Program-made: the position numbers and the translations under genes | Part shown: positions 3,535 through 56,952 of the stretch, in pieces | How positions within the stretch are numbered: the stretch's first letter is position 1 | Layout: each line of letters starts with the position of its first letter | Notes under the pieces: model-generated | What the model saw: the letters and a program-made list of their open reading frames with translations, nothing else | What the model was told of the DNA's origin: nothing | The model's database searches: none | Origin: Siphonodentalium dalli | Lineage: Eukaryota; Mollusca; Scaphopoda; Gadilida; Siphonodentaliidae | Assembly (NCBI GenBank): GCA_032622095.1 | Contig: CP136061.1 | Span: forward strand, 15,562,440-15,626,439 | Reading direction: 5' to 3' | Length of the DNA stretch: 64,000 nucleotides

Positions 3535-3643
3535 GTTATTAATGGTGGTCCGCTGCCAAACGCTCCCTTAATTCAACCTTTATCAAGCTTCGATTCTTCT
3601 GGTACATTCATCGGGTTTAACCAACTTAAGGCTCTACTCCCAG
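3535..3643 (+). CDS. MCM3AP: GANP exon 1 of window (post-Sac3 linker)
   Basis: The acceptor is attaattttcag and the donor CCCAG|GTATGT. It encodes 36 residues starting VINGGPLP and ending KALLP, matching the vertebrate stretch VVNGGPLP...ATELP just after the Sac3 domain. It ends in phase 1, and the first two bases of the next exon complete a Glu codon. Its last 16 nt (AAGGCTCTACTCCCAG) and the donor are the seed of the 45-bp array that follows, so the exact donor used cannot be decided from sequence. The first copy is given here because it is the shortest. Confidence 0.88.
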
Positions 3644-12600: not shown

Positions 12601-14293
12601 GATGCATTTCCTGTTTAAAATTTTCAAGATATGAACAGTATCAGATCAACAGGTAAAGTTTGACTCTTTCAGTTTGATACAATTGATTTTGTCAGTTTGT
12701 CTGTTTTGATTTGATTTATTTTGTCAGTTTGTCTGTTTCAAATCCCCAAGTATTATGGTTTCCCGATCAGAACTTGTGTTTTCTAGACCAGATCAAATTT
12801 GTACATAAACGTTTAAGATGAATGTAAAGGTAAATCTGGACTAATTCCCTTTTTAGAGTTGTTCCCCCTTTCAACTCAGATTTTACAATTGATTTTGGTT
12901 TCCATATCATGATTTTTTATCCATATTTGTTTCTATAAACGCCGTTTGGTTTATATTTTTTCTGAAAACATTCCAGAAATGGACGCAACAAACAATGCGA
13001 ACCAGCAGCGACAAGCTACACCAGAGCTTCCGCAGACGATATCAACTATTATTACCACAGGAATCGTCCCAGCATCAGACTCAGAATCACCGCCCACGTC
13101 GTCAGAAGAGCGTCTACCGAAACCCAGACCAGTATATTCGGGAGAGGTATGTCTCAGTCAGTCCTTTGATTTTAAAATATGTAAGTGCTTTGTTTTACTT
13201 TTTGTGGCTGGTAAATAACATAAAGAGGGACTGTACACTAAATCCGGCCCTTTATGGGACCATCTCCTTTTATACTCAACAGAATATATGGAACAAATGA
13301 ATGAATTTGAGTCATGGATTATTGCAAAATATACTCATGTGCTCTATGAACGATGCAAACATGGTAACTATAAACTCATTTTCATTATAATTACCATGTT
13401 GTTGCATCGTTCATAGAGCACACACGTGTATTTTGCTCTGAGCCATGGCTCAAATACATTCATTTGGAGGGACTGGAGCAGATGGCACTCCACAGTTCAT
13501 GCTTCCATCTGTGTGGGGCTCCCTGTGGGTTACCTATATTTTGCACTGATAATGAAGTGCAGAAGATATTCCCGTCAAAGATACGTTACACACTGAACTA
13601 CATGTTATCTTCATTTTTATTCACAAAGAGAGGATCTATGAGATCCGTTTAAAATTTATTATTTTGGTATGAAATAACTTAAGTACCTTTTTGAATCATT
13701 ATTATGACGTAGCAGGTCACAGGTCACGTGTCCACTAGCAGTAAGGCCAAAAAAAAAAAAGGTTTTGGTTCTCAGGCACCGCCGCATTGAATAAAAAGGG
13801 CCGCATTAGGCCTTTTTATTGCAATGCCCGATGTTACGACAAAAAAACTTACGAAAATTTTTTTTTTTTTTGGGGGGATTTAATCAACATGTCCATAGCA
13901 GATATGTGTTGAATATTAGTGTTCATTGAGCTCTAACATGTAATGTGTTAAAAAGTGACTTGCAGGCTTACAACATAAAGTAGATGACTACAATTAAGAA
14001 AATGATTAGCTGATCCTCATGCTCCTCTTACAATTAGTCATTGTGAACAACTTACACTAATTGTAACTTTATACAATTGAAAGGCACAGGACTAAATTCA
14101 GGATCACATATTAGAATGGGGAGTTATCAGTTTTTAGACAACAATAACAGTAGTTAATGTCAGGGGCATTATATATTGTTAGGTAATCCCAGTCATACAC
14201 TGGTAGTACAATGTCATTTTTATGTTTACCCATACCATAGTATGGTAAACATAATGTCGACGTCCGGATTGACCACTCGTCGTGCGTCCGTCC

Positions 14294-14332
<39 letters not shown>

Positions 14333-44300: not shown

Positions 44301-47300
44301 GCCTGCTGCGCATTTCACACACGTTTTGACCTTAGACAGAGGCGATTTGGTGACTCGAATATATAAGAAAATGCACTGGCACAGGATCTTAAATGCTGCA
44401 TCACTGTAGCTCCTGTCATGGAAGGGTTAAGAATTAATATAATTTACATTTCAGAATTACCACCACATTACTGGAATCATGACGACCAGCTTCAGAATAT
44501 CGCAGAGCGTCTGGGTACACTCGGACTACCAGCGTTTATCTTCGGCAAGGAGTCGGAACAATGGACAAATGTGACCGAAGATATCAATAAATTTATGAGT
44601 GCCGTGACTGGCAACGACACTTCATCATCAAGTGTCTTCCTAAAATCAAGGTGAATATCATCCCAAATCTTTTGACAAGTGAATCATACAGCAATGCTAA
44701 TTCAAAATATATCAACCAATCTAAGAGTAACATCCATGATTTGTGGAGATATATGGCCTGTTAAAGACCCAATTAATTTTTGATTGCCCAGTTCACATTA
44801 TACACGACATATTTCATATTATATACACCCCCCAGATCACATTATACACGACAATATATAGAGGATCTACAATGAGTCTCCAGTTTTTGTGGAATTTACA
44901 GACGAGTCCAGTAAATTAGGTCTGGACCAAGCCTTTGGTGAGGCCCAGACCTAATTTCCTGGAAGAGTTTTGTAAATTCCACTATAAACTGGGGACGAGT
45001 TGTAGATTCTATTTATTACATGATCCAGAACCTCGACAAAACAAATTTAAATCAACAAATGGGACATAAAACTGACATCGGGTTCCATAAGACATGCAAT
45101 GACGTTTCACGTAACTATGCATTGTTTGCCCATGTAAAGAAATAGTCCCAGATAAAGACTCTGACATATTTAATGGCATATATTTAATTACAGAACTTTT
45201 CAAACTCTTCATTCATTATAGTTTGTTGGAAAAATATAGGAAACCATAGTATTTTGAGACATAGCATATGGATTGTAAAACAACATATTGGAAGTCAACG
45301 GTCACCAGGAACTATTTCCTGTTATTAAACGTACGTTTAATATCACAATTTATAGAATGTGTTTATTGAATGGAATAAATATAAATTAATTATTAAACCA
45401 GAATACAGAACAGCTGTGGTCTAGGAGTGTCCCCCAAGTGATAGAGATTCTCAGATTCACCCCAAGACTTCCCCTGTTAGTTACCCAAGATGCATCGTAA
45501 TTCACAACTAAGAGATAGAGTTATTCCCCTTCCATTGAGAATAATAAACTATCTGTAAAGACCAGATCGAAAAAATGCACACAACACATGTCGGTACCTT
45601 GACAAAAACAAAATGTTCACAGTTTAATCGAATAGATCAGTGATAATATAATGTTTTGGAGCTCCTCTTTCAAATGGTATATTATAAGGATATCTGGATC
45701 TGGGGATTCGAAGATTAAGTGGGTCTTTATGGTCTATTGGATGTGGTGACAAGAACAAAACACAGCCAGGTCAGGTAAAATTATAATTTAATGCCTCAAG
45801 TTCATTTACATACCTGTTCTATACCCTAGAAGAAGCATGTAAATTAACCCTCACATGACTGGAGCTTCCTGAATTTTTTTTAAAACCCTTTGCCAATGCA
45901 TTATCTTATATATGCGAGGCTCCCTATGTGGGACTCGCATATATAAGAGAATGCACTGGCACATGGTATTTAAGCTGCACCAGCTCAGGTCCCATCATGA
46001 AAGTACATGGTCGACTTTCAAACAGGAAATGGATAGTTTTCGAGAAATTCGCTGGAATTTTTGGTGTGTTTCCATTAGTTCTAAAACTACTCCACATTTA
46101 TGTGCCATCAGGTTGTAATCATTCAATTGGATCGAGCCATCAGGATTTAATCATTCGCTTGGATTGAGGCATGTTTTTATATCACGAAAACAAAGATTGT
46201 ACCAAATTAGTGTGAAACTGATTTTGAATTATTTTTGTGAAACTGATTTTGAATTATTTTTGTGAAATATGATTTTGGGTTATCCCTCTTATATTAAACT
46301 AGAAGGTGACCCGACTTCGTCCTGGCTTTGACCTTGAATTGTCCATTTTGAAGGTCAAGGTCAAGTGGGGTCACGATTTGACCAGTCCAAAAACACTGCC
46401 CGGACAAAAGTACCCGACAAACGTGCCCGTCGAAATCCATCCGGTTTTACCCGATTTGACCTTGCATTGATAATTTTGAAGGTCAAGGTCTGGTCGGGGT
46501 CACGATTGGACCCGTCCAAAACAATCAGTGGACAAAAGTAACCCCACGTATCAAATTTCGTCGAAATCCCATCAAAATTGGCGATTTGACCTTGAAGTTA
46601 CCCGATTTCAAGGTCAAGGTCACGTCGCACGGGCAAATGAATATGCTTATGAGACTCGCCATAAGAAAGTACCCCCACATACCAAGTTTCATCGAAATCC
46701 TGTGATATTCTGGCGTTTGACCTTGAAATGACCCGATTTCAAGGTCAAGGTGACGTCGCACGGACAAATTAATATGCCTATGTTCGTCCCCGGCCGAAAA
46801 TACCCCCACATACCAAGTTTCATCGAAATCGGGTGTGCCGTTTTCGAGTTCATCGCGAACAGACAGACAGACACACAGACAGATCTTCCAAAATATATAA
46901 TAGAAGATTTGTAAAACGGCAAAAATAAAAATAACTCAATCAACGAAAAAGTGAGAACAGTATCATTCTCCGTTATTCCAGGGTGAACAGGCTGTTGGTA
47001 AAAGCTTGTGAAGACTTTGAAGACTCATGTTATCTGATTTCTATGTCTTATTAATTCCAGGGTAAACAGGCTGTTGGTTAAAGCTTGTGAAGACTTTGAA
47101 GACTCAAGTTATAATTATCTGATTTCTATGTCTTATTAATTCCAGGGTAAACAGGCTGTTGGTTAAAGCTTGTGAAGACTTTGAAGACTCATGCTATCTT
47201 ATGGAGAAGGAAGAAGGTTGCCAGCCGATGTACGTCAACGCTCCATGGACCGATGTCATCATGTCATGTATAGACTACAAAATCAAAATGGTTGACTTCT

Positions 47301-50300
47301 CCGACCCAAATATAGAATCCGAGGTACGCCTTCATTGATGAGTAGTTATCCCTCATGAAATGTTCAGATAATAAGTTCATCAAATGTCCATAGGACGAAG
47401 TTATTATCTAAACATTTTCCTCAATAAAAAGGGCTCCTTCTGTACTTTTATTTATCTGTTGTCTGCTTTTATTACCATAACATCCCTCCAAATCAATAAT
47501 AAACTGAATAAATAATGTGATGTACACAGTCAAATTGGAACACACCTCTAATTATACCCCCACTCTAGAAGATAATGGGGGGTATACTGGATTGACTGTC
47601 TCTGTCCGTTTGTCCGTCCGTCTGGCTTGATAACACGGAACAAATATGAACCAATTAAAAAAAAAAATTGTTTACAAGTTGCTTGTCACAGTATCTCAAA
47701 TCAGTGAGTAAACGATGTTTGTCCCAAATTTTTTGCCTGAGTTATGGACCTTAGAGTGTCATTTTTTTGTGATTTTTGTCCATTCAGCTTTCAAACAGAT
47801 ATGAACTGATCTCAATAATTTTTGGTACACAAGTTGCTTGCCACACTCTCTCAAATTATTGCGAAAATAAAGTTTATCCCAATTGTTTTGTCTGTGTTGT
47901 GACCCTTAGTTTATAAATTTTTGGCAATTTTTTTTGGTCAAATCAGTATTTAGGTTTGCAAACTCTTGTTCAGCCTAACCCTTTGTATATTAAATACTCA
48001 TTGATGAGTAGTTCCCTTATTAACCCTTTCTATATTAAATACTCATTGATGAGTAGTTCCCTTATTAACCCTTTCTATATTAAATACTCATTGATGAGTA
48101 GTTCCCTCATGATCCCTTTTTTTTGGTCAAATCAGTATTTAGGTTTGCAACCTCTTGTTCAGCCTAACCCTTTGTATATTAAATACTCATTGATGAGTAG
48201 TTCCCTTATTAACCCTTTGTATATTAAATACTCATTGATGAGTAGTTCCCTTATTAACCCTTTCTATATTAAATACTCATCGATGAGTAGTTCCCTCATG
48301 AACCCTTTCTATACTAAATACTCATTAATGAGTAGTTCCCTTATTAACCCTTTCTATATTAAATACTCATTGATGAGTAGTTCCCTTATTAACCCTTTCT
48401 ATACTAAATATTCATTGAGGAGTAGTTCCCTTGTTAACACTTTCTATATTAAATATTCATTGATGAGTAGTTCCCTCATGAACCCTTTCTATATTAAATA
48501 CTCATCGATGAGTAGTTCCCTCATGAACCCTTTGTATATTAAATACTCATTGATGAGTAGTTCCCTTATTAACCCTTTCTATATTAAATACTCATCGATG
48601 AGTAGTTCCCTCATGAACCCTTTCTATACTAAATACTCATTAATGAGTAGTTCCCTTATTAACCCTTTCTATATTAAATACTCATTGATGAGTAGTTCCC
48701 TTATTAACCCTTTCTATACTAAATATTCATTGAGGAGTAGTTCCCTTGTTAACACTTTCTATATTAAATATTCATTGATGAGTAGTTCCCTCATGAACCC
48801 TTTCTATATTAAATACTCATCGATGAGTAGTTCCCTCATGAACCCTTTCTATATTAAATACTCATTGATGAGTAGTTCCCTTAGGAAATGTTCAGAATAA
48901 TATGTTCAACATCTTATTATCTGAACTTTTCCCCACAAAAGAATATGAATCCTTCTGCATTTGTATCTTCTTTTTGTTTGTTTGTTGTCTGGTCCTATTA
49001 CCTGAACATCCCTCCAAATTAATAATAGACCATTCCGATGTATACTATTATAGTTGAATGGAAGAATCCATTTAGTACAGAAAAGGTTAATATGCCGTCT
49101 GAATTTACATAATTTTATTGACAGGATGTTATGGATGACATGGTTGTTGTGTACAGTGAAGACAATATGAAGAGATTTACTGTGACGCAAGAATGGAAGA
49201 ATGCTGTCAGGGACGCTCAGTTACAAAGTGAGTTCCATCATTGCAAAATGGCATCAGAACATGGCTCACATGGTCATGTGACATCAGGAGGCCAGGCTTA
49301 AAATTAAGAGGACGAAACCCACCATCACGTTAGGCTGGTTCCCTTCAATCCATTCTAATTAACAAATCCCACCATCATGTTAGACTGGTTCTCTGCCATC
49401 CATTATAATTAAAATCTGGTCCATAAAACTGTAAGGTAGAATGAAATCAAGAACGTCGAGATCGAGTTGAGGAATAAGTTATATTGTTCTATTTATTGGA
49501 AATGTTCAGATAATAAATTCAAAAGACAGTCATTTGTTGAACTTATTATTTAAACATTTCCCTGAATAAATAGGGCTCCTTCTGCACACTTATTTATCTG
49601 TCGTCTGTCCATATTTCTTAGACCTAATTGTGTAAAAATCAACCAATATTAACATTATTTAGGTCAATTATAAGTGTCATATATTAACCAGTTCTGTACA
49701 AAAGCATCATGAGTAGTTATCCCTTAGGAAATGTTCAGATAATATGTTCAACAAAGGACAGTCTGAATATTTCCCTCTATAAATAGGGCTCCTTCTGTAC
49801 TTTTATTAATGTGTTGTCTGCTTTTATCAGCTTAACATCCCTACAAATTAAGCATAGACCATTCTGATGTACACTTTTTAACTGAATGGGAGAATCAATT
49901 TAATATAGAAAGGGATATTTGAGGATTTGCCTGACCTGTTTATCTACTGCATGGTTTATTTACAGTAACGTCAACATACAGATTATTCATTGTTGGTGAT
50001 CTTCCCTGGAGATTCACATCTCACCTCTCTTTATATATATTTACAGGAACGTCAACATACAGATTATTCGTTGTTGGTGATCTTCCCTGGAGATTCATAT
50101 CTCACCTCTCTTTATATATATTTACATTAACGTCAACATACAGATTATTCATTGTTGGTGATCTTCCCTGGAGATTCACATCTCACCTCTCTTTATATAT
50201 ATTTACAGGAACGTCAACATACAGATTATTCGTTGTTGGTGATCTTCCCTGGAGATTCATATCTCACCTCTCTTTATATATATTTACATTAACGTCAACA

Positions 50301-53300
50301 TACAGATTATTCATTGTTGGTGATCTTCCCTGGAGATTCACATCTCACCTCTCTTTATATATATTTACAGGAACGTCAACATACAGATTATTCGTTGTTG
50401 GTGATCTTCCCTGGAGATTCATATCTCACCTCTCTTTATATATATTTACATTAACGTCAACATACAGATTATTCATTGTTGGTGATCTTCCTTGGAGATT
50501 CATATCTCACCTCTCTTTATATATATATTTACATTAACGTCAACATACTGATTATTCATTGTTGGTGATCTTCCTTGGAGATTCATATCTCACCTCTCTT
50601 TATATATATTTACAGTAACGTCAACATACAGATTATTCGTTGTTGGTGATCTTCCCTGGAGATTCACATCTCACCTCTCTTTATATATATTTACAGGAGC
50701 GTACAGATTATTCATTGTTGGTGATCTTCCCTGGAGATTCACATCTCACCTCTCTTTATATATATTTACATTAACGTCAACATACAGATTATTCATTGTT
50801 GGTGATCTTCCCTGGAGATTCATATCTCACCTCTCTTTATATATATTTACAGGAACGTCAACATACAGATTATTCATTGTTGGTGATCTTCCCTGGAGAT
50901 TCATATCTCACCTCTCTTTATATATATTTACATTAACGTCAACATACAGATTATTCATTGTTGGTGATCTTCCCTGGAGATTCATATCTCACCTCTCTTT
51001 ATATATATTTACGGGAACGTCAACATACAGATTATTCATTGTTGGTGATCTTCCCTGGAGATTCATATCTCACCTCTCTTTATATATATTTACATTAACG
51101 TCAACATACAGATTATTCGTTGTTGGTGATCTTCCCTGGAGATTCATATCTCACCTCTCTTTATATATATTTACGGGAACGTCAACATACAGATTATTCA
51201 TTGTTGGTGATCTTCCCTGGAGATTCATATCTCACCTCTCTTTATATATATTTACAGGAACGTCAACATACAGATTATTCATTGTTGGTGATCTTCCCTG
51301 GAGATTCATATCTCACCTCTCTTTATATATATTTACATTAACGTCAACATACAGATTATTCGTTGTTGGTGATCTTCCCTGGAGATTCATATCTCACCTC
51401 TCTTTATATATATTTACGGGAACGTCAACATACAGATTATTCATTGTTGGTGATCTTCCCTGGAGATTCATATCTCACCTCTCTTTATATATATTTACAG
51501 GAACGTCAACATACAGATTATTCATTGTTGGTGATCTTCCCTGGAGATTCATATCTCACCTCTCTTTATATATATTTACAGGAACGTCAACATACAGATT
51601 ATTCGTTGTTGGTGATCTTCCTTGGAGATTCATATCTCACCTCTCTTTATATATATTTACATTAACGTCAACATACAGATTATTCATTGTTGGTGATCTT
51701 CCCTGGAGATTCATATCTCACCTCTCTTTATATATATTTACAGGAACGTCAACATACAGATTATTCATTGTTGGTGATCTTCCTTGGAGATTCATATCTC
51801 ACCTCTCTTTATATATATTTACAGTAACGTCAACATACAGATTATTCATTGTTGGTGATCTTCCTTGGAGATTCATATCTCACCTCTCTTTATATATATT
51901 TACATTAACGTCAACATACAGATTATTCATTGTTGGTGATCTTCCTTGGAGATTCATATCTCACCTCTCTTTATATATATTTACAGGAACGTCAACATAC
52001 AGATTATTCGTTGTTGGTGATCTTCCCTGGAGATTCATATCTCACCTCTCTTTATATATATTTACATTAACGTCAACATACAGATTATTCGTTGTTGGTG
52101 ATCTTCCCTGGAGATTCATATCTCACCTCTCTTTATATATATTTACGGGAACGTCAACATACAGATTATTCATTGTTGGTGATCTTCCCTGGAGATTCAT
52201 ATCTCACCTCTCTTTATATATATTTACAGGAACGTCAACATACAGATTATTCATTGTTGGTGATCTTCCCTGGAGATTCATATCTCACCTCTCTTTATAT
52301 ATATTTACAGTAACGTCAACATACAGATTATTCATTGTTGGTGATCTTCCTTGGAGATTCATATCTCACCTCTCTTTATATATATTTACAGGAGCGTCAA
52401 CATACAGATTATTCATTGTTGGTGATCTTCCCTGGAGATTCATATCTCACCTCTCTTTATATATATTTACATTAACGTCAACATACAGATTATTCGTTGT
52501 TGGTGATCTTCCCTGGAGATTCATATCTCACCTCTCTTTATATATATTTACAGGAGCGTCAACATACAGATTATTCATTGTTGGTGATCTTCCCTGGAGA
52601 TTCATATCTCACCTCTCTTTATATATATTTACAGGAACGTCAACATACAGATTATTCATTGTTGGTGATCTTCCTTGGAGATTCATATCTCACCTCTCTT
52701 TATATATATTTACAGGAACGTCAACATACAGATTATTCATTGTTGGTGATCTTCCCTGGAGATTCATATCTCACCTCTCTTTATATATATTTACATTAAC
52801 GTCAACATACAGATTATTCATTGTTGGTGATCTTCCCTGGAGATTCACATCTCACCTCTCTTTATATATATTTACATTAACGTCAACATACAGATTATTC
52901 ATTGTTGGTGATCTTCCCTGGAGATTCATATCTCACCTCTCTTTATATATATTTACAGGAACGTCAACATACAGATTATTCATTGTTGGTGATCTTCCCT
53001 GGAGATTCATATCTCACCTCTCTTTATATATATTTACATTAACGTCAACATACAGATTATTCATTGTTGGTGATCTTCCCTGGAGATTCATATCTCACCT
53101 CTCTTTATATATATTTACATTAACGTCAACATACAGATTATTCATTGTTGGTGATCTTCCCTGGAGATTCATATCTCACCTCTCTTTATATATATTTACA
53201 TTAACGTCAACATACAGATTATTCATTGTTGGTGATCTTCCCTGGAGATTCACATCTCACCTCTCTTTATATATATTTACATTAACGTCAACATACAGAT

Positions 53301-56300
53301 TATTCATTGTTGGTGATCTTCCCTGGAGATTCATATCTCACCTCTCTTTATATATATTTACAGGAACGTCAACATACAGATTATTCATTGTTGGTGATCT
53401 TCCCTGGAGATTCATATCTCACCTCTCTTTATATATATTTACATTAACGTCAACATACAGATTATTCATTGTTGGTGATCTTCCCTGGAGATTCATATCT
53501 CACCTCTCTTTATATATATTTACGGGAACGTCAACATACAGATTATTCATTGTTGGTGATCTTCCCTGGAGATTCATATCTCACCTCTCTTTATATATAT
53601 TTACATTAACGTCAACATACAGATTATTCGTTGTTGGTGATCTTCCCTGGAGATTCATATCTCACCTCTCTTTATATATATTTACGGGAACGTCAACATA
53701 CAGATTATTCATTGTTGGTGATCTTCCCTGGAGATTCATATCTCACCTCTCTTTATATATATTTACAGGAACGTCAACATACAGATTATTCATTGTTGGT
53801 GATCTTCCCTGGAGATTCATATCTCACCTCTCTTTATATATATTTACATTAACGTCAACATACAGATTATTCGTTGTTGGTGATCTTCCCTGGAGATTCA
53901 TATCTCACCTCTCTTTATATATATTTACGGGAACGTCAACATACAGATTATTCATTGTTGGTGATCTTCCCTGGAGATTCATATCTCACCTCTCTTTATA
54001 TATATTTACAGTAACGTCAACATACAGATTATTCATTGTTGGTGATCTTCCCTGGAGATTCATATCTCACCTCTCTTTATATATATTTACAGGAGTGTCA
54101 ACATACAGATTATTCATTGTTGGTGATCTTCCCTGGAGATTCATATCTCACCTCTCTTTATATATATTTACAGGAACGTCAACATACAGATTATTCATTG
54201 TTGGTGATCTTCCCTGGAGATTCATATCTCACCTCTCTTTATATATATTTACATTAACGTCAACATACAGATTATTCGTTGTTGGTGATCTTCCCTGGAG
54301 ATTCATATCTCACCTCTCTTTATATATATTTACGGGAACGTCAACATACAGATTATTCATTGTTGGTGATCTTCCCTGGAGATTCATATCTCACCTCTCT
54401 TTATATATATTTACAGGAACGTCAACATACAGATTATTCATTGTTGGTGATCTTCCCTGGAGATTCATATCTCACCTCTCTTTATATATATTTACAGGAA
54501 CGTCAACATACAGATTATTCGTTGTTGGTGATCTTCCTTGGAGATTCATATCTCACCTCTCTTTATATATATTTACATTAACGTCAACATACAGATTATT
54601 CATTGTTGGTGATCTTCCCTGGAGATTCATATCTCACCTCTCTTTATATATATTTACAGGAACGTCAACATACAGATTATTCATTGTTGGTGATCTTCCT
54701 TGGAGATTCATATCTCACCTCTCTTTATATATATTTACAGTAACGTCAACATACAGATTATTCATTGTTGGTGATCTTCCTTGGAGATTCATATCTCACC
54801 TCTCTTTATATATATTTACAGGAACGTCAACATACAGATTATTCGTTGTTGGTGATCTTCCCTGGAGATTCATATCTCACCTCTCTTTATATATATTTAC
54901 ATTAACGTCAACATACAGATTATTCGTTGTTGGTGATCTTCCCTGGAGATTCATATCTCACCTCTCTTTATATATATTTACGGGAACGTCAACATACAGA
55001 TTATTCATTGTTGGTGATCTTCCCTGGAGATTCATATCTCACCTCTCTTTATATATATTTACAGGAACGTCAACATACAGATTATTCATTGTTGGTGATC
55101 TTCCCTGGAGATTCATATCTCACCTCTCTTTATATATATTTACAGTAACGTCAACATACAGATTATTCATTGTTGGTGATCTTCCTTGGAGATTCATATC
55201 TCACCTCTCTTTATATATATTTACAGGAGCGTCAACATACAGATTATTCATTGTTGGTGATCTTCCCTGGAGATTCATATCTCACCTCTCTTTATATATA
55301 TTTACATTAACGTCAACATACAGATTATTCGTTGTTGGTGATCTTCCCTGGAGATTCATATCTCACCTCTCTTTATATATATTTACAGGAGCGTCAACAT
55401 ACAGATTATTCATTGTTGGTGATCTTCCCTGGAGATTCATATCTCACCTCTCTTTATATATATTTACAGGAACGTCAACATACAGATTATTCATTGTTGG
55501 TGATCTTCCTTGGAGATTCATATCTCACCTCTCTTTATATATATTTACAGGAACGTCAACATACAGATTATTCATTGTTGGTGATCTTCCCTGGAGATTC
55601 ATATCTCACCTCTCTTTATATATATTTACATTAACGTCAACATACAGATTATTCATTGTTGGTGATCTTCCCTGGAGATTCATATCTCACCTCTCCTTAT
55701 ATATATTTACAGGAACGTCAACATACAGATTATTCATTGTTGGTGATCTTCCTTGGAGATTCATATCTCACCTCTCTTTATATATATTTACAGGAACGTC
55801 AACATACAGATTATTCATTGTTGGTGATCTTCCCTGGAGATTCATATCTCACCTCTCTTTATATATATTTACAGGAACGTCAACATACAGATTATTCGTT
55901 GTTGGTGATCTTCCCTGGAGATTCATATCTCACCTATCCTTATATATATTTACAGTAACGTCAACATACAGATTATTCATTGTTGGTGATCTTCCCTGGA
56001 GATTCATATCTCACCTCTCTTTATATATATTTACAGGAACGTCAACATACAGATTATTCGTTGTTGGTGATCTTCCCTGGAGATTCATATCTCACCTCTC
56101 TTTATATATATTTACATTAACGTCAACATACAGATTATTCGTTGTTGGTGATCTTCCCTGGAGATTCATATCTCACCTCTCTTTATATATATTTACATTA
56201 ACGTCAACATACAGATTATTCATTGTTGGTGATCTTCCCTGGAGATTCATATCTCACCTCTCTTTATATATATTTACATTAACGTCAACATACAGATTAT

Positions 56301-56952
56301 TCATTGTTGGTGATCTTCCCTGGAGATTCATATCTCACCTCTCTTTATATATATTTACAGGAGTGTCAACATACAGATTATTCATTGTTGGTGATCTTCC
56401 CTGGAGATTCATATCTCACCTCTCTTTATATATATTTACAGGAACGTCAACATACAGATTATTCATTGTTGGTGATCTTCCCTGGAGATTCACATCTCAC
56501 CTCTCCTCATATATATATTTACAGGAACGTCAACATACAGAAGCACGCTGGATAAAGCTTTAGAAAATAATAAGAAAAAGAATGAGGAAAATAAGGAGAA
56601 TATACCGTTAAAATCTCTGTTAGAGTCGACCAAGGTGAAGGTCATAGAACTCAAAACCCCGACCAAAGCTCTCACATCTGCTCTCCAGGCTGAGAAACAG
56701 AAGGCGCAGGAATTTGATGACTATTTACAGAGAGTTCTGAATGAGGACGTCTGCTACAGTGCGCAGCCAGTACCTATGATGGAGGCGGAGTTAGATTCCT
56801 CTGATTCAACAGATGTTCCACATTCTAATGGAGTTCATGATGATGGCTCACTGAGTGATAGATTGTCGAGTTTTAAATCTGACATGGACAGAATTCGGAG
56901 GTCTGATGAGATGTTCGAGAAGCGATTGAGGAATCTTATGAACTCTTTGTGA
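3535..56952 (+). CDS. MCM3AP: GANP/MCM3AP C-terminal half, 14 exons, TREX-2 scaffold (5' end beyond window)
   Basis: GANP is the large scaffold of nuclear-pore-associated TREX-2, which couples transcription to mRNA export; it binds PCID2, DSS1, ENY2 and centrins. Fourteen exons (3535-3643, 12977-13146, 25455-25612, 26561-26728, 28153-28679, 34624-34766, 36025-36219, 40304-40558, 42467-42628, 43392-43515, 44455-44650, 47146-47323, 49125-49227, 56525-56952) join at GT/AG sites with matching phase throughout and sum to 2,916 nt. The 971-residue product aligns by eye, in order, with vertebrate GANP downstream of its Sac3 domain: NGGPLP, PVYS, a charged CID helix, a basic WK..F..R.K.KR.MQ.FP.AP segment, YWKLLLALP, VPLVVLVP, DYSWPVSEY and APWTDVI. 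Human GANP has a comparable length from NGGPLP to its end. The Sac3/PCI, RRM-like and FG parts must lie upstream. Introns are enlarged by repeats that often begin exactly at splice sites. Identification is from memory of the family, not a search. Confidence 0.93.
3628..8974 (+). repeat. 45-bp tandem array of the exon 1 donor junction (~112 units)
   Basis: Each unit is 16 nt of exon 1 end (AAGGCTCTACTCCCAG) plus the donor and the first 29 intron nt (GTATGTATATAGTGATTAAA onward to CACAGTT). About 19 longer 61-bp units also carry 13 more exon nt (GTTTAACCAACTT), for example near 4078, 4229, 4786, 4936, 5177 and 5373. Units are nearly identical; rare variants are agtTacag and gtcacTgtt. The plus frame continues the exon 1 frame and is open to 4086, adding 15 residues per unit (KALLPGMYIVIKVTV). 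Long open frames on both strands come from the unit length being a multiple of 3 and are not separate genes. Confidence 0.95.
8985..9036. repeat. Partial hairpin-MITE end
   Basis: The stretch ggtactgtacactcaatccg and tttatgggaccatctccttt matches the outer arms of the foldbacks at 12.3-12.6 and 13.2-13.5 kb. It is truncated by the next repeat. Confidence 0.6.
9039..9900. repeat. Mollusc-type dispersed repeat (CTCACCTGAGAC family)
   Basis: A head hairpin CTCACCTGAGAC...GTCTCCGGTGGAGCT is followed by a gtccgtctgtctg microsatellite and degenerate ~130-bp modules containing ggttcatatttggt, cagatttgttcaaatgaggt and agggccataact. No coding capacity is seen. The type is common in mollusc genomes (known); its class is unclear to me. 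Confidence 0.8.
10215..10630. mobile_element. Hairpin MITE (GCAGAATGAGG family), copy 1
   Basis: Arms are gcagaatgaggttcccagag ggtgaattta and reverse complements such as taaattcaccctt..gggacctcatt. Copies recur at 35.06-35.58 and 57.0-57.9 kb with the same interior (cttctattt agtttctatatcccc). Confidence 0.75.
10707..10724 (+). repeat. Poly-G run
   Basis: A run of about 17 G. Similar runs occur at 11268-11280 (G), 20165-20174 (G), 26014-26039 (C, 26 nt) and 62642-62661 (C). Such runs are prone to assembly length error. Confidence 0.9.
11075..11205. mobile_element. Short TTAA MITE, family C
   Basis: TTAACCATTTCATGACCAGA at the left and CCAGGTCATGGTAATTTTGTTAA-type end at the right enclose one hairpin core (gcattctcttatatatgct / agagaatgcactgg). 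About 130 bp. Confidence 0.7.
11318..12000. repeat. Dispersed repeat, same family as 9.0-9.9 kb
   Basis: Modules ggttcatatttggtgtagat, gttccctaggtgac, agggccataactct and cttgggtgacctgg match the 9.0-9.9 kb element, more diverged. Confidence 0.75.
12340..12605. mobile_element. Foldback MITE (gagccatgg family), copy 1
   Basis: The left arm (actcaacagaatatatgcaa, tttgagccatgg) is repeated as reverse complement at 12,530-12,575 (ccatggctcaaattcattca, atatattctgttgagt). A second copy is at 13,226-13,465. Confidence 0.8.
12977..13146 (+). CDS. MCM3AP: GANP exon 2 (low-complexity linker)
   Basis: Acceptor ttccag, donor GGAGAG|GTATGT. The first two bases complete the codon left open by exon 1, and the exon ends in phase 0. 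It encodes a Ser/Thr/Pro/Gln-rich linker (residues about 37-93) ending KPRPVYSGE, which matches the PVPVYSDED motif before the vertebrate CID region. No junction repeat is visible at either edge of this exon. Confidence 0.85.
13226..13465. mobile_element. Foldback MITE (gagccatgg family), copy 2
   Basis: Begins gactgtacactaaatccggc and tatgggaccatctcc, followed by arms gagtcatggattattgcaaa and the inverted ttttgctctgagccatggct. It lies 80 bp after exon 2. Confidence 0.8.
13745..15741. mobile_element. PIF/Harbinger-like element with TAA target duplication
   Basis: Starts GGCCAAAAAAAAAAAAGG then TTTTGGTTCTCAGGCA; ends TGCCCGAGAACCAAAACAC then TTTTTTGGCC. TAA flanks both sides (13742-13744, 15742-15744). 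The flanks joined, ctagcagTAAtataagcgag, match the uninterrupted sequence on the minus strand near 20,563, an empty site. A 3-bp TWA duplication with GG..CC termini suits PIF/Harbinger. No transposase is seen; a nested repeat fills 14.23-15.48 kb. Confidence 0.82.
14230..15480. repeat. Dispersed degenerate repeat (gagttatggccctt type) with gtctgtctg microsatellite
   Basis: A cgtccgtctgtctgtctgtc tract at 14,285-14,335 precedes five or so ~130-bp modules with aaatttggtatgtgagtttc, aaaatacagatcgagtt and gagttatggcccttt. Open frames here are short and without domain. Confidence 0.75.
15745..18600. other. Intron 2 sequence without recognised gene
   Basis: Short open frames only (60-130 codons), none with a recognisable domain and none with a phase-compatible exon needed by the GANP model, since exon 2 joins exon 3 in frame. 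16.3-17.2 kb is locally less AT-rich and may be an old insertion. Confidence 0.4.
18627..18860 (+). pseudogene. Possible LINE reverse-transcriptase C-terminal remnant
   Basis: A 77-codon frame contains RGNCFNLQKHHSSTDVGQYF then FTNRVAEMWNKLPEYIVIA and ETGAFQNF. The pattern F..R....WN.LP..vv.A.....F is typical of the end of non-LTR retrotransposon ORF2 proteins. No upstream catalytic YADD part is seen in frame, so it is a fragment. Confidence 0.5.
18900..20340. other. Intron 2 sequence, unclassified
   Basis: No supported gene. Frames at 19243-19632 and 19880-20125 (PWRRRHLHVHAYDLWAI) could be decayed retroelement fragments but have no firm motif. A G-run lies near 20,165. Confidence 0.35.
20357..20770. 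mobile_element. Inverted-repeat MITE carrying the empty Harbinger site
   Basis: Inverted arms: aacattttcaatagaaaata catattccctaataagatac near 20,400-20,440, and its complement at 20,725-20,765. The interior is the reverse complement of the sequences flanking the 13,745-15,741 element (13.55-13.74 and 15.74-15.80 kb), so two copies of this MITE exist, one split. Confidence 0.75.
20848..21214. mobile_element. piggyBac-like MITE, family A, copy 2
   Basis: TTAACCCTTTACCCAACA to TGTTGGGTAAAGGGTTAA, 367 bp, two hairpin cores and an end segment aatgatatccatatttgtat. Abuts the 45-bp satellite at its right TTAA. Confidence 0.85.
21215..23960 (-). repeat. 45-bp satellite (about 60 units)
   Basis: The unit gggttaataagggaactact is followed by c(g/a)tcaatgagtatttagtatagaat. 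Several units lack one g, giving 44 bp. Minus-strand open frames repeating SLTSSSLINPFYTKY are shadows of the unit length. The same satellite occurs in opposite orientation at 47.97-48.89 kb, and two units follow the hAT element at 25,041-25,125. Confidence 0.95.
23999..25040. mobile_element. Non-autonomous hAT-like element
   Basis: Ends TAGAGATGGGCGGTACTCGG and CGCCCATCTCTA as inverted repeats, with further inverted GGTATCGGTATC motifs. It is flanked by an 8-bp duplication CTACTCGT (23991-23998 and 25041-25048) taken from the satellite unit. The 8-bp duplication and TAGAGATGGG termini are hAT features. No transposase frame in 1,042 bp. Confidence 0.88.
25126..25454. other. Intron sequence before exon 3
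   Basis: Unique AT-rich sequence; nothing recognised. Confidence 0.4.
25455..25612 (+). CDS. MCM3AP: GANP exon 3 (start of CID region)
   Basis: Acceptor gtattttcag, start in phase 0 (AIKDIARSMFLDV), donor ATGTTAAG|GTTAGT. It encodes 52 residues of amphipathic helix (VISGIARNVAVECKHAVDTI) at the start of the region that recruits ENY2 and centrin. It ends in phase 2 and the next exon supplies the third base of an Arg codon. The 3' end and donor are copied twice immediately downstream. If the second or third donor is used the frame stays open and 30 or 60 residues are added. Confidence 0.85.
25530..25805 (+). repeat. Triplicated exon 3 end plus donor (~90 bp units)
   Basis: The units start with AAGCATGC at 25530, 25644 and 25734, each running through a copy of the exon 3 end and a donor. 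Donors are at 25613 (AAG|GTTAGT), 25703 (AAG|GTTAGT) and 25793 (ACG|GTTGGT). Unit 1 is 24 nt longer (VRDTTD insertion). The copies translate as KHAVQAILxTQNAIVxSML. The reading frame is open through all three and on to 25874. Confidence 0.9.
25806..26245. repeat. Intron 3 repeats: duplicated cggctggttaaacaacacat segment and poly-C
   Basis: The segment cggctggttaaacaacacat gtggcggcccacgtc occurs at about 25,809 and 25,930. Fragments with ttcccggtcttccgatcggc occur at about 25,850 and 26,126. A 26-nt C run is at 26014-26039. Confidence 0.75.
26246..26475. mobile_element. TTAA MITE, family C
   Basis: TTAAACATTCCATGACTGGA at left and CATGATATGAAAGAGTTAA at right, with two hairpin cores (cgcatatttaagagaatgca and gtgcattctctaaaatatgc). 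Ends 85 bp before exon 4. Confidence 0.75.
26561..26728 (+). CDS. MCM3AP: GANP exon 4 (CID charged helix)
   Basis: Acceptor tctattatag, donor AATCG|GTGAGT. It encodes about 56 residues with a long charged helix (KHAERKALEREREYTLNRLS) and ELMDDILK, corresponding to the vertebrate GANP helix KERERREQERQ...LVLSELSQGLAVELMERV, the ENY2/centrin-interacting CID segment. Phases match both neighbours (2 in, 2 out). Confidence 0.9.
26694..26906 (+). repeat. 56-bp tandem copies of the exon 4 donor junction (4 units)
   Basis: The last 35 nt of exon 4 (AAACAGATAGATATCATAGT onward), the GTGAGT donor and about 20 intron nt are repeated. Three downstream copies share AAAGGAATAGAATCG|GTGAG instead of AAAGGATGAGAATCG, so one copy diverged and was then multiplied. 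The unit is not a multiple of 3, and reading through the first donor meets TGA at once, so later donors would give a truncated product. Confidence 0.92.
26907..27816. other. Intron 4 sequence, unclassified
   Basis: No exon. It includes a gataagatagataaagataa stretch at about 27,508, like a non-LTR element 3' end, and a TTAAAGGTGCC start at 26,904 that resembles the right end of the insert at 28,868-30,944. Confidence 0.4.
27817..28089. mobile_element. TTAA MITE, family B (gagtgcca), copy 1
   Basis: TTAACCCTTTGAGTGCCAGG and CTGGCACTCAAAGGGTTAA inverted ends, one hairpin core inside, and a subterminal gatgagatcggcc. Ends 64 bp before exon 5. Confidence 0.85.
28153..28679 (+). CDS. MCM3AP: GANP exon 5 (end of CID, start of C-terminal domain)
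   Basis: Acceptor ctgttttccag, donor AACCAG|GTTAGT, 527 nt, phases 2 in and 1 out. This is the largest internal exon. It holds the strongest family signature: a basic segment KHKFFSHWKSLFSKRTKIKR followed by FMQTFPQAP, matching vertebrate [23 protein letters not shown]. The ESMWYVDEKAV...NRWCDIALNAYSI part corresponds to the segment leading to the DVAWASLDLPSLV motif, seen here as EKAWQPLDIPKVI. Not junction-repeated. Confidence 0.95.
29312..29476 (+). pseudogene. THAP zinc-finger N-terminal half
   Basis: The frame starts MPYKCSVFGCGWSCD and continues ...LYSFPNDVRLRAIWQDFCGK, fitting the start of the THAP C2CH finger (C-x4-C, FP, R..W). The distal C-x2-H part is absent before the stop, so it is either one exon of a split gene or a fragment. 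Confidence 0.6.
30690..30790. other. Cluster of CACGTGATC motifs
   Basis: acgtgatcgatcacgt, aatcacgtgatcggg and tgatcacgtgac lie within 80 bp. The palindromes include E-box cores. They sit in the THAP insert; function unknown. Confidence 0.5.
31240..33640. other. Intron 5 sequence with small repeats
   Basis: Contains inverted cctgaca/tgtcagg motifs (31.73-31.85 and 32.27-32.38 kb), a 40-bp direct duplication (cagtgattatacataaaatg) at 32,790-32,870, and a foldback around 32,970-33,115. No exon supported. Confidence 0.5.
32960..33120. mobile_element. Foldback element (gaggtgaatattgac type)
   Basis: Arms cagttatcgcattgtttc, ttgacacgaggaattgtcaa and aagtcaaaattcacc pair with ggtgaatattgacttcc, ttgacaattccttgtgtcaa and gaaacaatgcgataactg. 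Confidence 0.85.
33673..34623 (+). repeat. 49-bp tandem array of the exon 6 acceptor (~19 units)
   Basis: The unit GGTTATCATATGAATGGTTT continues with gtgacagccttggactatatttttctaca. Every unit carries a pyrimidine-rich stretch and AG|GTT identical to the true acceptor; early copies have ttttttgacag instead of tttttctacag, and some lack one G (ccttgac). Bases after GGTT resemble exon 6 only weakly. Using an upstream copy would read Y-H-M-N-G-L then TGA, so only the last acceptor leads into the correct exon. Confidence 0.93.
34624..34766 (+). CDS. MCM3AP: GANP exon 6
   Basis: Acceptor tatatttttctacag, donor TACAAG|GTTGGT. The first two bases complete a Gly codon and the exon ends in phase 0. 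It encodes TYWKLLLALPESGGKDK...LLCKWLRSKF, matching vertebrate HVFWKLVLVLPD...ILANWLKVKF in the C-terminal MCM3AP-type domain. The acceptor is the last copy of a 49-bp array. Confidence 0.92.
35060..35578. mobile_element. Hairpin MITE (GCAGAATGAGG family), copy 2
   Basis: Several gcagaatgaggtccccagag / ttcaccctctgggaacctca arms nest over 520 bp, with the interior gatagaaactgaacagaagg. Confidence 0.75.
35579..35958. mobile_element. piggyBac-like MITE, family A, copy 3
   Basis: TTAACCCTTTACCCAACA to TGTTGGGTAAAGGGTTAA. Nearly identical to copy 2 at 20.8-21.2 kb. Ends 66 bp before exon 7. Confidence 0.87.
36025..36219 (+). CDS. MCM3AP: GANP exon 7
   Basis: Acceptor gttcttgttattatag, donor CTACTC|GTGAGT, 65 codons, phase 0 both sides. 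Encodes SDLLSHYRVEIDEGSKRQLAVCVRSVYGML...FSGTSAILFVMKPIP, matching vertebrate [20 protein letters not shown]...DLLGASGLMLLLPPKM. A diverged copy of its last ~45 nt and its donor lies at 38,120-38,170. Confidence 0.9.
36520..37599. mobile_element. PIF/Harbinger-like element with TTA target duplication
   Basis: GGCCAAAACAAATTAATTAA then TTGATTCTCAGGCACCGCCG at left; TTGCCTGAGAATCAATTCAA then TTTTGTTTGGCC at right; TTA at 36517-36519 and 37600-37602. Same ends as the 13.7-kb element (CTCAGGCACCGCCGC). It holds a frame at 36941-37186 with a CIKCGG...HPQCKTC Cys cluster and a basic tail, of unknown identity. Confidence 0.82.
36941..37186 (+). CDS. Small Cys-rich open frame inside Harbinger-like element
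   Basis: 81 codons with two CxxC pairs (CIKCGG and CKTCLEK) and a Lys/Arg-rich end (SRKRNFSSEKQEKLKAKRNK). Not recognised. It could be a domain remnant of a transposon accessory protein or chance. Confidence 0.3.
   Translation: MRVYVRQNFKCSDQIEIPYFSCKSFPDICIKCGGMEDLDKVDGCHPQCKTCLEKFQTVLSRKRNFSSEKQEKLKAKRNKAK
37838..38034. mobile_element. Degenerate TTAA MITE, family C
   Basis: Two hairpin cores (gcatattaagagaatgcact, gtattctcttatatatgtga) and the end ttcgcaaaatttcaagaagc tccagtcatggaaggg. The TTAA termini are decayed (gggATAA). Confidence 0.6.
38115..38325 (+). pseudogene. Diverged duplicate of exon 7 3' edge and donor, split by a foldback
   Basis: The sequence encodes MFVMKPIPDGNETPQ then a stop, against FVMKPIPDDDETLL in exon 7, followed by aTAAGTACAG in place of the GTGAGTACAA donor (GT lost). 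A segment like the next intron bases (tatgacttcaaagag against tatgacgtcaaaggc) resumes at about 38,298 after the foldback at 38,172-38,294. The copy is therefore a relic of a junction duplication, 1.9 kb from its source. Confidence 0.75.
38172..38294. repeat. Foldback with ~57-bp arms
   Basis: The arm aatgctctaagtaatcgact and onward through ttacttttcagg is followed by a near-perfect reverse complement ending atagcatt. It has almost no loop. It looks like a MITE or foldback insertion and interrupts the exon 7 copy. Confidence 0.85.
38350..39790. repeat. 68-bp array (about 18 units) inside a TTAA-type MITE
   Basis: The unit tttcctatgggataactact continues with catcaatgatgctttagtat, agaaagggttaaacttatta and tctgaaca. 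Upstream 38,350-38,520 is the MITE body (atccctttctataccaaatg, gattctcccagtcagttaaa). The 45-bp satellite shares actactcatcaatga, ttagtatagaa and gggttaa, so both look derived from this end. Confidence 0.85.
39800..40243. mobile_element. piggyBac-like MITE, family A, copy 4 (right end decayed)
   Basis: TTAACCCTTTACCCAACA at left; the right end is ttttgttggtacgt, without TTAA. The interior has a small duplication (aaaattgttaaagaatgtaa). Ends 60 bp before exon 8. Confidence 0.8.
40304..40558 (+). CDS. MCM3AP: GANP exon 8
   Basis: Acceptor ttaatttcag, donor GACAAG|GTATAT, 85 codons, phase 0 both sides. Encodes EYWLEEQDRLLTILNSKPTN then VVPLVVLVP, matching vertebrate [33 protein letters not shown], and QCVQQGLLDNVQIIPL, matching DLVSAKLISDYTVTEIP. 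No junction repeat. Confidence 0.94.
41010..41160. mobile_element. Hairpin core copy with decayed ends
   Basis: ccaatgcattctctaatata and tatataaagagaatgcattg flank gaggcgacctatgatcaact. The outer TIR is not clear. Confidence 0.6.
41876..42362. mobile_element. TTAA MITE, family B, copy 2
   Basis: TTAACCCTTTGAGTGCCACG, then gccgatctcatcggccct, to CTGGCACACAAAGGGTTAA, opposite orientation to copy 1. It includes gggttgaattttttttgggt expansions. Confidence 0.82.
42467..42628 (+). CDS. MCM3AP: GANP exon 9
   Basis: Acceptor tttctaatttaag, donor CATCAT|GTGAGT, 54 codons, phase 0 both sides. Encodes LCDAIQWLARFKPSELHLEA...FLQDSFFTLVLQNLKERRQK, matching vertebrate [21 protein letters not shown]...EFSGRFFHDRRERR. 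Followed by a short tandem copy of its donor edge. Confidence 0.92.
42611..42674 (+). repeat. Two tandem copies of the exon 9 donor junction (34 bp)
   Basis: AAAGGATACCTTCATCAT|GTGAGTATC (exon 9 edge) recurs as AAAGGATATCTTCATCAT|GTGAGTCTC beginning at 42645. Both have a full GTGAGT donor. The offset of 34 nt is not a multiple of 3. Confidence 0.9.
42675..42754. mobile_element. 80-bp minimal TTAA MITE (family B relative)
   Basis: TTAACACGTTGAGTGCCAAC and GCTGGCACTCAACGTGTTAA are close inverted ends with only about 40 bp between. It inserted directly after the exon 9 donor duplicate. Confidence 0.85.
42817..43068. mobile_element. TTAA MITE, family C
   Basis: TTAACCCTTCCATGACTGGA to CATCATGAAAGGGTTAA, with two hairpin cores. 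About 252 bp. Confidence 0.85.
43392..43515 (+). CDS. MCM3AP: GANP exon 10
   Basis: Acceptor tctattgatag, donor GCTCCAG|GTACAG, 41 codons plus 1 nt. Encodes DPNLLINFYNHCVEFLINLL...DYSWPVSEYCNS, matching vertebrate [33 protein letters not shown]. Phase 1 out, completed to a Glu codon by exon 11. The last 49 nt and the donor are repeated. Confidence 0.92.
43467..43730 (+). repeat. 66-bp tandem copies of the exon 10 donor junction (4 units)
   Basis: Each unit is 49 nt of exon 10 end (AAGGATTATTCCTGGCCGGT onward) plus the donor GTACAG and about 11 further intron nt. Starts are 43467, 43533, 43599 and 43665. The frame is open through all four, giving repeats of KDYSWPVSEYCNSHAPGTVL-FI, so use of donors 2-4 adds 22, 44 or 66 residues without a frameshift. 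Confidence 0.95.
43795..43910 (+). repeat. 57-bp direct duplication in intron 10
   Basis: ctgaatctgacatggtatgg through ggtcactagatcac occurs twice in tandem. Confidence 0.9.
44010..44072. repeat. Short hairpin
   Basis: gctttgcttcttgctgcagt and actgcagcaagaagcaaagc pair around a loop gggtgcatgcc. Confidence 0.85.
44345..44430. mobile_element. Truncated family C MITE end
   Basis: aatatataagaaaatgcact and gctcctgtcatggaagggtt then TTAA at 44427-44430. The left half is missing. Lies 25 bp before exon 11. Confidence 0.65.
44455..44650 (+). CDS. MCM3AP: GANP exon 11
   Basis: Acceptor ttacatttcag, donor ATCAAG|GTGAAT. Encodes ELPPHYWNHDDQLQNIAERLGTLGLPAF and on to SSSVFLKS, matching the vertebrate [21 protein letters not shown] region, which is less conserved. 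Phase 2 out. Confidence 0.87.
44850..45010. mobile_element. Foldback element (gaggatct.. type), copy 1
   Basis: Arms tggaatttaca..gacga, aaattaggtctgg and inverted ccagacctaattt, tgtaaattcca. A related copy is at 58,430-58,580. Confidence 0.75.
45010..45843. other. Intron 11 sequence, unclassified
   Basis: AT-rich; short minus frames without domain; nothing recognised. Confidence 0.4.
45844..46005. mobile_element. TTAA MITE, family C, right end decayed
   Basis: TTAACCCTCACATGACTGGA and agcttcctgaa at left, one hairpin core (gcgaggctccctatgtggga), catcatgaaagta at right. Confidence 0.65.
46300..46895. repeat. Dispersed repeat (tgaccttgaa / aaggtcaaggtca type)
   Basis: Modules taccaagtttcatcgaaatc, gaccttgaaatgacccgatt, tcaaggtcaaggtcacgtcg and the tail gaacagacagacagacacac. 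Repeats of this kind are common in molluscs and some other invertebrates. Short minus frames here are shadows. Confidence 0.75.
46980..47200 (+). repeat. Three tandem copies of the exon 12 acceptor (79-85 bp)
   Basis: Copies of attCCAG|GGT(A/G)AACAGGCTG plus about 45 exon nt have acceptor AGs ending at 46981, 47060 and 47145. The upstream copies diverge after GACTCA into ttatctgatttctatgtctt, which is the intron end of the next unit, and read into TAA. Only the third copy continues into the true exon. Confidence 0.92.
47146..47323 (+). CDS. MCM3AP: GANP exon 12
   Basis: Acceptor cttattaattccag, donor TCCGAG|GTACGC. The first base completes an Arg codon; phase 0 out. Encodes VNRLLVKACEDFEDSCYLM...NAPWTDVIMSCIDYKIKMVD, matching vertebrate VENLLHRTYCRW...EIPWDDLIALCINHKLRDW. 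The third acceptor copy was chosen because the earlier two lead to a stop. Confidence 0.92.
47330..47505. mobile_element. Fragment of satellite-parent MITE
   Basis: ttcattgatgagtagttatc, aaatgttcagataataagtt, gggctccttctgtact and aacatccctccaaatcaata match 38.3-38.6, 48.9-49.1 and 49.5-49.9 kb. It starts 7 nt after exon 12. Confidence 0.7.
47575..47950. repeat. Dispersed repeat with gtccgtccgtc head
   Basis: ggggtatactggattgactg tctctgtccgtttgtccgtc is followed by two ~180-bp modules (atatgaactgatctcaataa, cacaagttgcttgcca). Confidence 0.65.
47975..48893 (+). repeat. 45-bp satellite in inverted orientation (about 18 units)
   Basis: aaccctttctatattaaata plus ctcattgatgagtagttccc and tta is the reverse complement of the 21.2-23.9 kb unit. 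It has 315-bp higher-order duplication (48.27-48.58 versus 48.59-48.90) and a copied non-satellite piece (gtcaaatcagtatttaggtt) at 47,938 and 48,126. The 314-codon frame is a shadow. Confidence 0.92.
48885..49095. mobile_element. Satellite-parent MITE copy
   Basis: aggaaatgttcagaataata, atgaatccttctgcatttgt, ggaagaatccatttagtaca and gaaaaggTTAA. It lies between the satellite and exon 13. Confidence 0.7.
49125..49227 (+). CDS. MCM3AP: GANP exon 13
   Basis: Acceptor attttattgacag, donor TTACAAA|GTGAGT, phase 1 out. Encodes DVMDDMVVVYSEDNMKRFTV then TQEWKNAVRDAQLQ, matching vertebrate [28 protein letters not shown]. The last base A is completed by GA of exon 14 to Arg. Confidence 0.9.
49495..49922. 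mobile_element. Satellite-parent MITE copies before the 81-bp array
   Basis: ggaaatgttcagataataaa appears twice with inverted partner gaacttattatttaaacatt. The right end is ggagaatcaatttaatatag aaaggg. Confidence 0.65.
49960..56541 (+). repeat. 81-bp tandem array of the exon 14 acceptor junction (~81 units)
   Basis: Each unit ends with tttatatatatttacag and begins with GAACGTCAACATACAGA, the first 17 nt of exon 14, followed by ttattcattgttggtgatct and on to ctcacctctct. Acceptor versions vary: acag|gaacg, acag|taacg, acgg|gaacg and acat|taacg, so many copies have lost AG. One unit near 50,690 is 6 nt short, and those near 50,520 and 56,510 gain 2 nt. The phase that would follow exon 13 is open through the array (27 residues per unit), giving an 822-codon frame at 54095-56563, but the +2 in the last unit throws it out of frame with exon 14. 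It is not an independent gene. Confidence 0.95.
56525..56952 (+). CDS. MCM3AP: GANP terminal exon 14
   Basis: Acceptor tatatttacag, first codon (with A of exon 13) Arg, then TSTYRSTLDKALENNKKKNE; stop TGA at 56950. The end has heptad-like charged helix (DRIRRSDEMFEKRLRNLMNS), resembling vertebrate ERLKHLERLIRSSREEE near the GANP C-terminus. The KALTSALQAEKQKAQEFDDYLQRVLNED part matches [26 protein letters not shown]. The alternative AG at 56540 would shift to a frame that stops after 6 codons, so it is rejected. A candidate poly(A) signal AATAAA is at 57981. Confidence 0.93.

Follow-up and report, generated by a model that had tools for sequence, protein, structure and literature searches.

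Why do the splice junctions of a single gene carry tandem repeats, and do they carry them more often than the abundance of repeats in the surrounding DNA predicts? This question is raised by a 64,000-nucleotide stretch of the Siphonodentalium dalli genome (C1:15562440-15626439; hereafter the window; assembly of 2.23 Gb in 9 contigs). Within it, an MCM3AP/GANP gene is represented by its 3′ part, on the + strand.

Gene model and junction arrays

A gene model of the window was built from open frames and splice sites. It consists of 14 exons bordered by GT and AG sites, whose phases all fit and yield one open frame of 971 codons plus a stop codon. The joined exons matched the Pfam family PF16769 (MCM3AP_GANP; 1.3e-66, residues 350-914). 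Furthermore, two vertebrate GANP proteins aligned along the joined exons, with matching residues flanking, for example, the exon 9/10 and exon 10/11 junctions as judged by eye. The SAC3 exons of the same gene are located upstream of the window. A search of exon 5 against solved structures revealed no relative.

The model comprises 27 junctions (14 acceptors and 13 donors). Arrays found by TRF overlapped eight of them, five donors and three acceptors (Table 1). This is in agreement with the initial annotation, which had described a tandem repeat over one splice junction in 8 of 13 introns, at the donors of exons 1, 3, 4, 9 and 10 and the acceptors of exons 6, 12 and 14. The unit lengths of 34-90 bp and copy numbers from 2 to more than 100 given there were confirmed for the TRF arrays on these eight junctions. 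Seven arrays extend at least 4 bases to either side of the junction, and the array at exon 6 shares just GTT of the exon. Each array lies in a different intron, and none of the eight introns has repeats at both ends. The duplication at the exon 9 donor was reported by TRF with a period of 17, at the score threshold.

Table 1. Exons of the GANP gene, junction arrays and long open frames in the window.
Feature	Position	Strand	Basis or description
Exon 1 of the window	3535..3643	+	frame, splice sites; VINGGPLP aligned with vertebrate GANP
Exon 1 donor	3643/3644	+	CTCCCAG|GTATGT
Exon 2, without junction array	12977..13146	+	frame, splice sites
Exon 3	25455..25612	+	frame, splice sites, vertebrate GANP alignment
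Exon 4	26561..26728	+	frame, splice sites, vertebrate GANP alignment
Exon 5, without junction array	28153..28679	+	frame, splice sites
Exon 6	34624..34766	+	frame, splice sites, vertebrate GANP alignment
Exon 7	36025..36219	+	splice sites, vertebrate GANP alignment
Exon 8, without junction array	40304..40558	+	frame, splice sites
Exon 9	42467..42628	+	frame, splice sites, vertebrate GANP alignment
Exon 10	43392..43515	+	frame, splice sites, vertebrate GANP alignment
Exon 11, without junction array	44455..44650	+	frame, splice sites
Exon 12	47146..47323	+	frame, splice sites, vertebrate GANP alignment
Exon 13, without junction array	49125..49227	+	frame, splice sites
Exon 14 with stop codon; conservation weak	56525..56952	+	frame, splice sites, vertebrate GANP alignment
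Exon 1 donor array	3626..8972	+	45-bp unit (18 exonic + 27 intronic bases) x 112; 19 breaks of 16 bp
Exon 3 donor array	25602..25804	+	90-bp unit x 2.3
Exon 4 donor array	26694..26903	+	56-bp unit x 3.75 (~3.8)
Exon 6 acceptor array	33673..34626	+	49-bp unit x 19.5; 3 bases into exon
Exon 9 donor two-copy duplication	42611..42673	+	period about 34 bp
Exon 10 donor array	43467..43730	+	66-bp unit x 4.0
Exon 12 acceptor array	46975..47199	+	unit about 79-85 bp x 2.8
Exon 14 acceptor array	49957..56541	+	81-bp unit x 81, ~6.6 kb
Long open frames in arrays with units divisible by 3	3626-4086, 25602-25871, 43467-43730, 50552-56560		

A displaced and decayed copy of the exon 7 donor had also been noted and is real. 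It is a single copy at 38116-38162 (+), which matches 36171-36217 with 83% over 47 bp and lies about 1.9 kb from the donor itself. This copy adjoins a palindromic repeat (around CAGGATAAATCCTGAAAAGTTACCC; window 38116-38260), and a similar stretch was seen beside a partial acceptor copy in one of the chaperonin loci considered below (L038).

Collapsed or inflated arrays are common in assemblies. An assembly artefact can nevertheless hardly account for the arrays on the junctions: their copies carry patterned variants (the acceptor types in the exon 14 array and the breaks in the exon 1 array), eight different units are involved, and the assembly consists of 9 very large contigs, although the copy numbers may still be wrong.

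Four of the junction arrays have units that are divisible by 3 (45, 90, 66 and 81 bp) and open in the frame of the repeated exon piece, which results in long open frames. The open frame of the exon 14 array comprises 2003 codons, but the frame is shifted just before exon 14. Use of other copies in such arrays would possibly allow longer proteins; as judged by eye, the excess of open units divisible by 3 is weak.

Junction arrays compared with chance placement and with other genes

To count events rather than bases, each array was treated as one event and collapsed to one unit, which reduced the gene to a collapsed length of 34.4 kb. All tests of junction excess concern this one gene and were made once the pattern had already been seen. 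As claimed initially, there were more junction overlaps than random placement gives, with 7-8 of 29 arrays where about 0.9-1.0 would be expected (P about 1e-5, post hoc). When a margin of 4 bases was required, seven arrays crossed a junction compared to 0.89 expected (P 1.4e-5 to 1.5e-5). With a margin of 1 base the number rose to eight compared to 1.03 expected, a value reached in 0 of 200000 simulations. Restriction to robust arrays left 6 of 18 on junctions, where 0.77 were expected (P 4e-5). Even with placement confined to 300 bp around the junctions, 7 of 19 arrays were observed on them and 1.94 expected (P 0.0012). These values are likewise post hoc. A raw base-coverage test would show no excess, because robust arrays cover 34.5% of the window bases. 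The per-event test is in our view the appropriate one, since a functional junction constitutes a single landmark, and additional copies do no more than lengthen the array.

Eleven robust arrays are located in intron interiors, corresponding to 3.2 per 10 kb of collapsed sequence as compared to about 2.25-2.5 per 10 kb in the 200 kb downstream of the window, a region with few recognisable genes. The interior density is thus near the local background, and the excess therefore sits on the junctions. The downstream density predicts 0.37 junction arrays in the window, where six robust ones were observed.

In the 50 kb upstream of the window, 19 further junctions were called by hand. A 61-bp array (upstream positions 18307-18477) and a 62-bp array (21337-21684) of the same gene lie on hand-called donors at 18318 and 21383, respectively. 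Both exons rest on open frames and splice motifs without a homology match, and the arrays may have drawn the eye to them. Read by eye, their phases do not allow an in-frame junction between the two, and the model therefore probably lacks an intervening exon. The upstream region by itself, with its exons placed by eye, gave two junction arrays compared to 0.40 expected (P 0.057). Window and upstream region together gave nine compared to 1.28 expected (P 3e-6).

A genome-wide comparison of junctions was sampled in the chaperonin family PF00118, which has 53 matches in the same genome. Ten exons with 20 junctions and a flank of 200-350 bp each were inspected. Four exons were chosen for an odd table value, and six, including L042, followed the order of the table, where two long matches without interruption and near-identical duplicates were skipped. 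Long open-frame values in this table had been considered as marks of open arrays, which proved wrong. The donor of L043 among the 20 sites was placed 3 bases off. One of the 20 junctions was duplicated, namely the L042 acceptor on C2 (period 55 bp, two copies, score 35 of possible 40 around the junction; absent from the TRF list). At the other 19 junctions, no duplication was found within the 200-350 bp flank. Among the controls, 16 of 682 positions reached the threshold, in three loci. They represent the second L042 copy, a repeat within an intron in L039 and, in L038, an incomplete copy of the acceptor's intron side. By chance, about 0.5 of these three events would be expected to span a junction; the sample accordingly shows occurrence in another gene, not excess. 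Its rate of 1 in 20 is lower than that in GANP.

Junction duplication is thus not confined to GANP. GANP may have an unusually high density of junction arrays: a comparison of the window (8 of 27 junctions) with the chaperonins (1 of 20) gives a Fisher P of 0.059, and one of the whole gene (10 of 46) with the chaperonins a P of 0.15. A SAC3-related locus on C6 (20 kb), viewed without a precise gene model, contains few arrays, and no array was evident at the end of an exon. A 66-bp array is located near an exon in L006 and L007, which represent a SAC3-like match on C5.

These data bear on one alternative explanation, namely chance in a repeat-rich genome from which this gene was singled out for showing the pattern. 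The genome is rich in minisatellites, as reflected by 2.25 robust arrays per 10 kb downstream and by their share of the window bases, just one chaperonin junction in 20 was duplicated, and the window was perhaps picked out of many scanned. However, the per-event test gave P about 1e-5 for the window and 1e-3 when the strictest local null was applied, and a further junction duplication occurred in an unrelated chaperonin gene. We therefore regard chance as unlikely.

Selection might have acted in two ways. Duplicated splice sites might be kept as useful, be it as redundant sites or as places where U1 binds along long introns. Alternatively, survival might be limited to duplications that leave a working site. 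The latter had been put forward initially as one of two explanations, but tolerance alone cannot enrich junctions over intron interiors, because interior duplications should be at least equally tolerable. The splice sites within the arrays gave divergent results. Of the 81 copies in the exon 14 array, 38 no longer have the acceptor AG, owing to two different changes, and the six-base acceptor core around the junction contains 5 of the 11 positions at which the unit varies (hypergeometric P 1e-4; post hoc, copies non-independent), as if intronic decoys had been switched off. In the exon 1 array, the donor CAG|GTATGT is kept in 112 of 112 copies. Intact donors at exon 1 and dying acceptors at exon 14 point in opposite directions, however, and the acceptor AG of the exon 6 array is kept in 18 of 19 copies. 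Moreover, the intact donors of the exon 1 array are not very informative, since this array is near-uniform along its whole length (103 of 112 units identical), and the variants of the exon 14 array, counted post hoc, were spread by homogenisation. Selection, which we judge improbable as the cause of the arrays, is a weaker reading than a repair mechanism: it could explain the acceptor decay at exon 14, not the junction excess.

Origin of the units and structure of the arrays

Units of the eight arrays in the window and the two upstream were compared with about 0.35 Mb of sequence. None of the ten matched outside its own array, as compared to four of the seven tested units of intron-interior arrays. 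The junction arrays are therefore local and separate in origin, as had been proposed, as far as about 0.35 Mb goes. Introner-type dispersal of the ten units was likewise not observed in this part of the 2.23 Gb. By visual inspection, a core resembling ACTACTCATCAATGA...TATAGAA recurs, on either strand, in the intron-interior arrays at 21208-23952, 38537-39782 and 47976-48883. For the first two, unit matches were also obtained beyond the array itself, and these arrays therefore look like dispersed-repeat expansions, unlike the junction arrays. A scan of viral contigs for a repeat core gave no match.

Six of the eight arrays in the window (exons 3, 4, 6, 9, 12 and 14) have the same junction fragment (R) at their start and at their end, and a filler (F) lies between the R copies, giving the order R-F-R. 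The R fragments measure about 23, 42, 26, 28, 64 and 25 bp, respectively, determined partly by eye. The fillers of ~5-67 bp were found by eye in neither flank as single-copy sequence. The duplication at the L042 chaperonin acceptor also displays the R-F-R form by eye, with two copies. The filler at exon 3 partly corresponds to a diverged copy of exon 3 itself (25530-25587; 81% over 58 bp; shuffle P 0.005), and this was the only one of the six R-F-R arrays for which a local filler template was found. The same type of test on the exon 10 unit gave P values of 0.05 with 150-bp flanks and 0.16 with 1000-bp flanks. The exon 10 array has no terminal overlap, and the breakpoints of the exon 1 array share, by eye, microhomologies of 3 and 4 bases (TTA and GTTT).

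The R-F-R order suggests a duplication with filler that was later expanded, because terminal repeats of this length are not expected from a simple contiguous tandem duplication. The same order could also arise if a terminal copy were truncated.

Relation to mirages and possible mechanism

The initial annotation knew of no named system of this kind. The same structure is, however, called a mirage in amphioxus, where the available text of two reports describes it in Adh3, troponin C, the globins BflGb6 and BflGb9, and PGBD5 (PMC3087553, PMC3902484). According to this text, units measure 10 to 160 bp, both boundaries are affected, splicing is normal, length polymorphism and somatic instability occur and the mechanism is called unclear; mirages are so far described in cephalochordates and reported gene by gene (PMC3087553, PMC3902484). 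Like the amphioxus mirages in these descriptions, the GANP arrays are minisatellite-like repeats over exon-intron boundaries, 5′ and 3′, with variable unit and copy number, and AG/GT is retained in many, not all, copies (PMC3087553, PMC3902484). Unlike the mirages portrayed there, which affect one or two introns, they occupy eight introns of one gene, reach 112 copies and 6.6 kb, and reside in a different genome of 2.23 Gb in 9 contigs. By structure, the GANP arrays, known here from genomic sequence alone, belong with the mirages. Amphioxus genomes are much smaller than 2.23 Gb and have more chromosomes. A search of the open-licence literature found no report of equally dense junction arrays in another animal.

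Other boundary repeats resemble the GANP arrays in part. In human genes within segmental duplications, internal tandem repeats of ~30 bp at boundaries alter the exon-intron structure; unlike the GANP arrays, they are portrayed in the available text as occurring in recent paralogues and tied to new introns or longer exons (PMC2812944). Direct repeats near intron borders have been attributed to break repair (Rogers and Bendich 2025, PMC11782384). As far as the accessible part of that paper goes, these are 4-30 bp long and shared between the two ends of one intron, whereas the GANP arrays lie at one end. Minisatellites in a first intron are known from earthworm metallothionein genes, in an account whose available part does not mention spanned junctions.

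In the Rogers model of intron gain, introns are born by tandem duplication of AGGT-bearing exon pieces, and both ends of the new intron lie in tandem-duplicated copies. Tandem copies carrying splice signals are common to this model and to GANP, where AG|GT occurs within the unit at exons 1, 3, 6 and 10, and the available text on globin mirages proposes them as a route to new introns (PMC3087553). The model needs repeats at both intron ends, however, and 0 of 8 introns show that; in addition, most of the introns span kilobases and contain dispersed repeats. An origin of these introns by such gain is accordingly highly improbable.

Segments straddling the junctions of one gene have been duplicated locally and separately per junction, and are now present in 2 to 112 copies. 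Our preferred reading, to which we give a probability of roughly 0.5, is that these are mirage-type minisatellites, in which local junction duplications were repaired with filler and expanded, and that their excess results from a mutational bias at transcribed exon-intron boundaries. A break or stalled fork at a junction would be repaired by fill-in or template switching, leaving R-F-R, which unequal exchange or slippage would then expand. The junction might be marked by transcription or splicing, perhaps through pausing, R-loops or nicks; this step is a guess. Splicing would tolerate the array because one junction copy at its edge keeps the exon usable; a single open frame does run through the edge copies of the arrays. 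That junctions exceed intron interiors in arrays is best explained by mutation being biased towards transcribed exon-intron boundaries, and a process favouring duplication at junctions is possible. More speculative, and rather doubtful in our view, is the broader idea that germ-line repair is aimed at transcribed junctions, where staggered breaks or stalled forks would be filled in and joined with filler to seed expandable R-F-R, which would make junctions hotspots of minisatellite birth and mirages general in animals.

With eight to ten mirages, one gene offers enough separate events to compare breakpoints, and the phenomenon is extended to another genome. Should the excess at junctions prove to be genome-wide, it would indicate a mutational hotspot tied to transcription or splicing and a source of raw material for new exons and introns. 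Furthermore, the arrays are natural cases of a spliceosome facing up to 112 identical donor sites and presumably still yielding usable mRNA.

Further repeats were observed in the window and elsewhere in the genome. The window contains the remains of a CENP-B/Tc5-type transposase gene (60707-61463, - strand; PF04218, PF03221) with a 78-bp tandem duplication inside the coding sequence (60964-61124). A protein search with a transposase-like ORF gave no match. Two short arrays of 29-30 bp at 59766-59845 and 59992-60071, ~150 bp apart, have units that by eye are mutually reverse-complement-like. In L030, two near-identical exons, which we take to be thrombospondin-like, lie 1.3 kb apart (1429-1617 and 2765-2953), each preceded by an array with a 51-bp period; from its sequence, the pair looks like a tandem duplication of exon plus flank.
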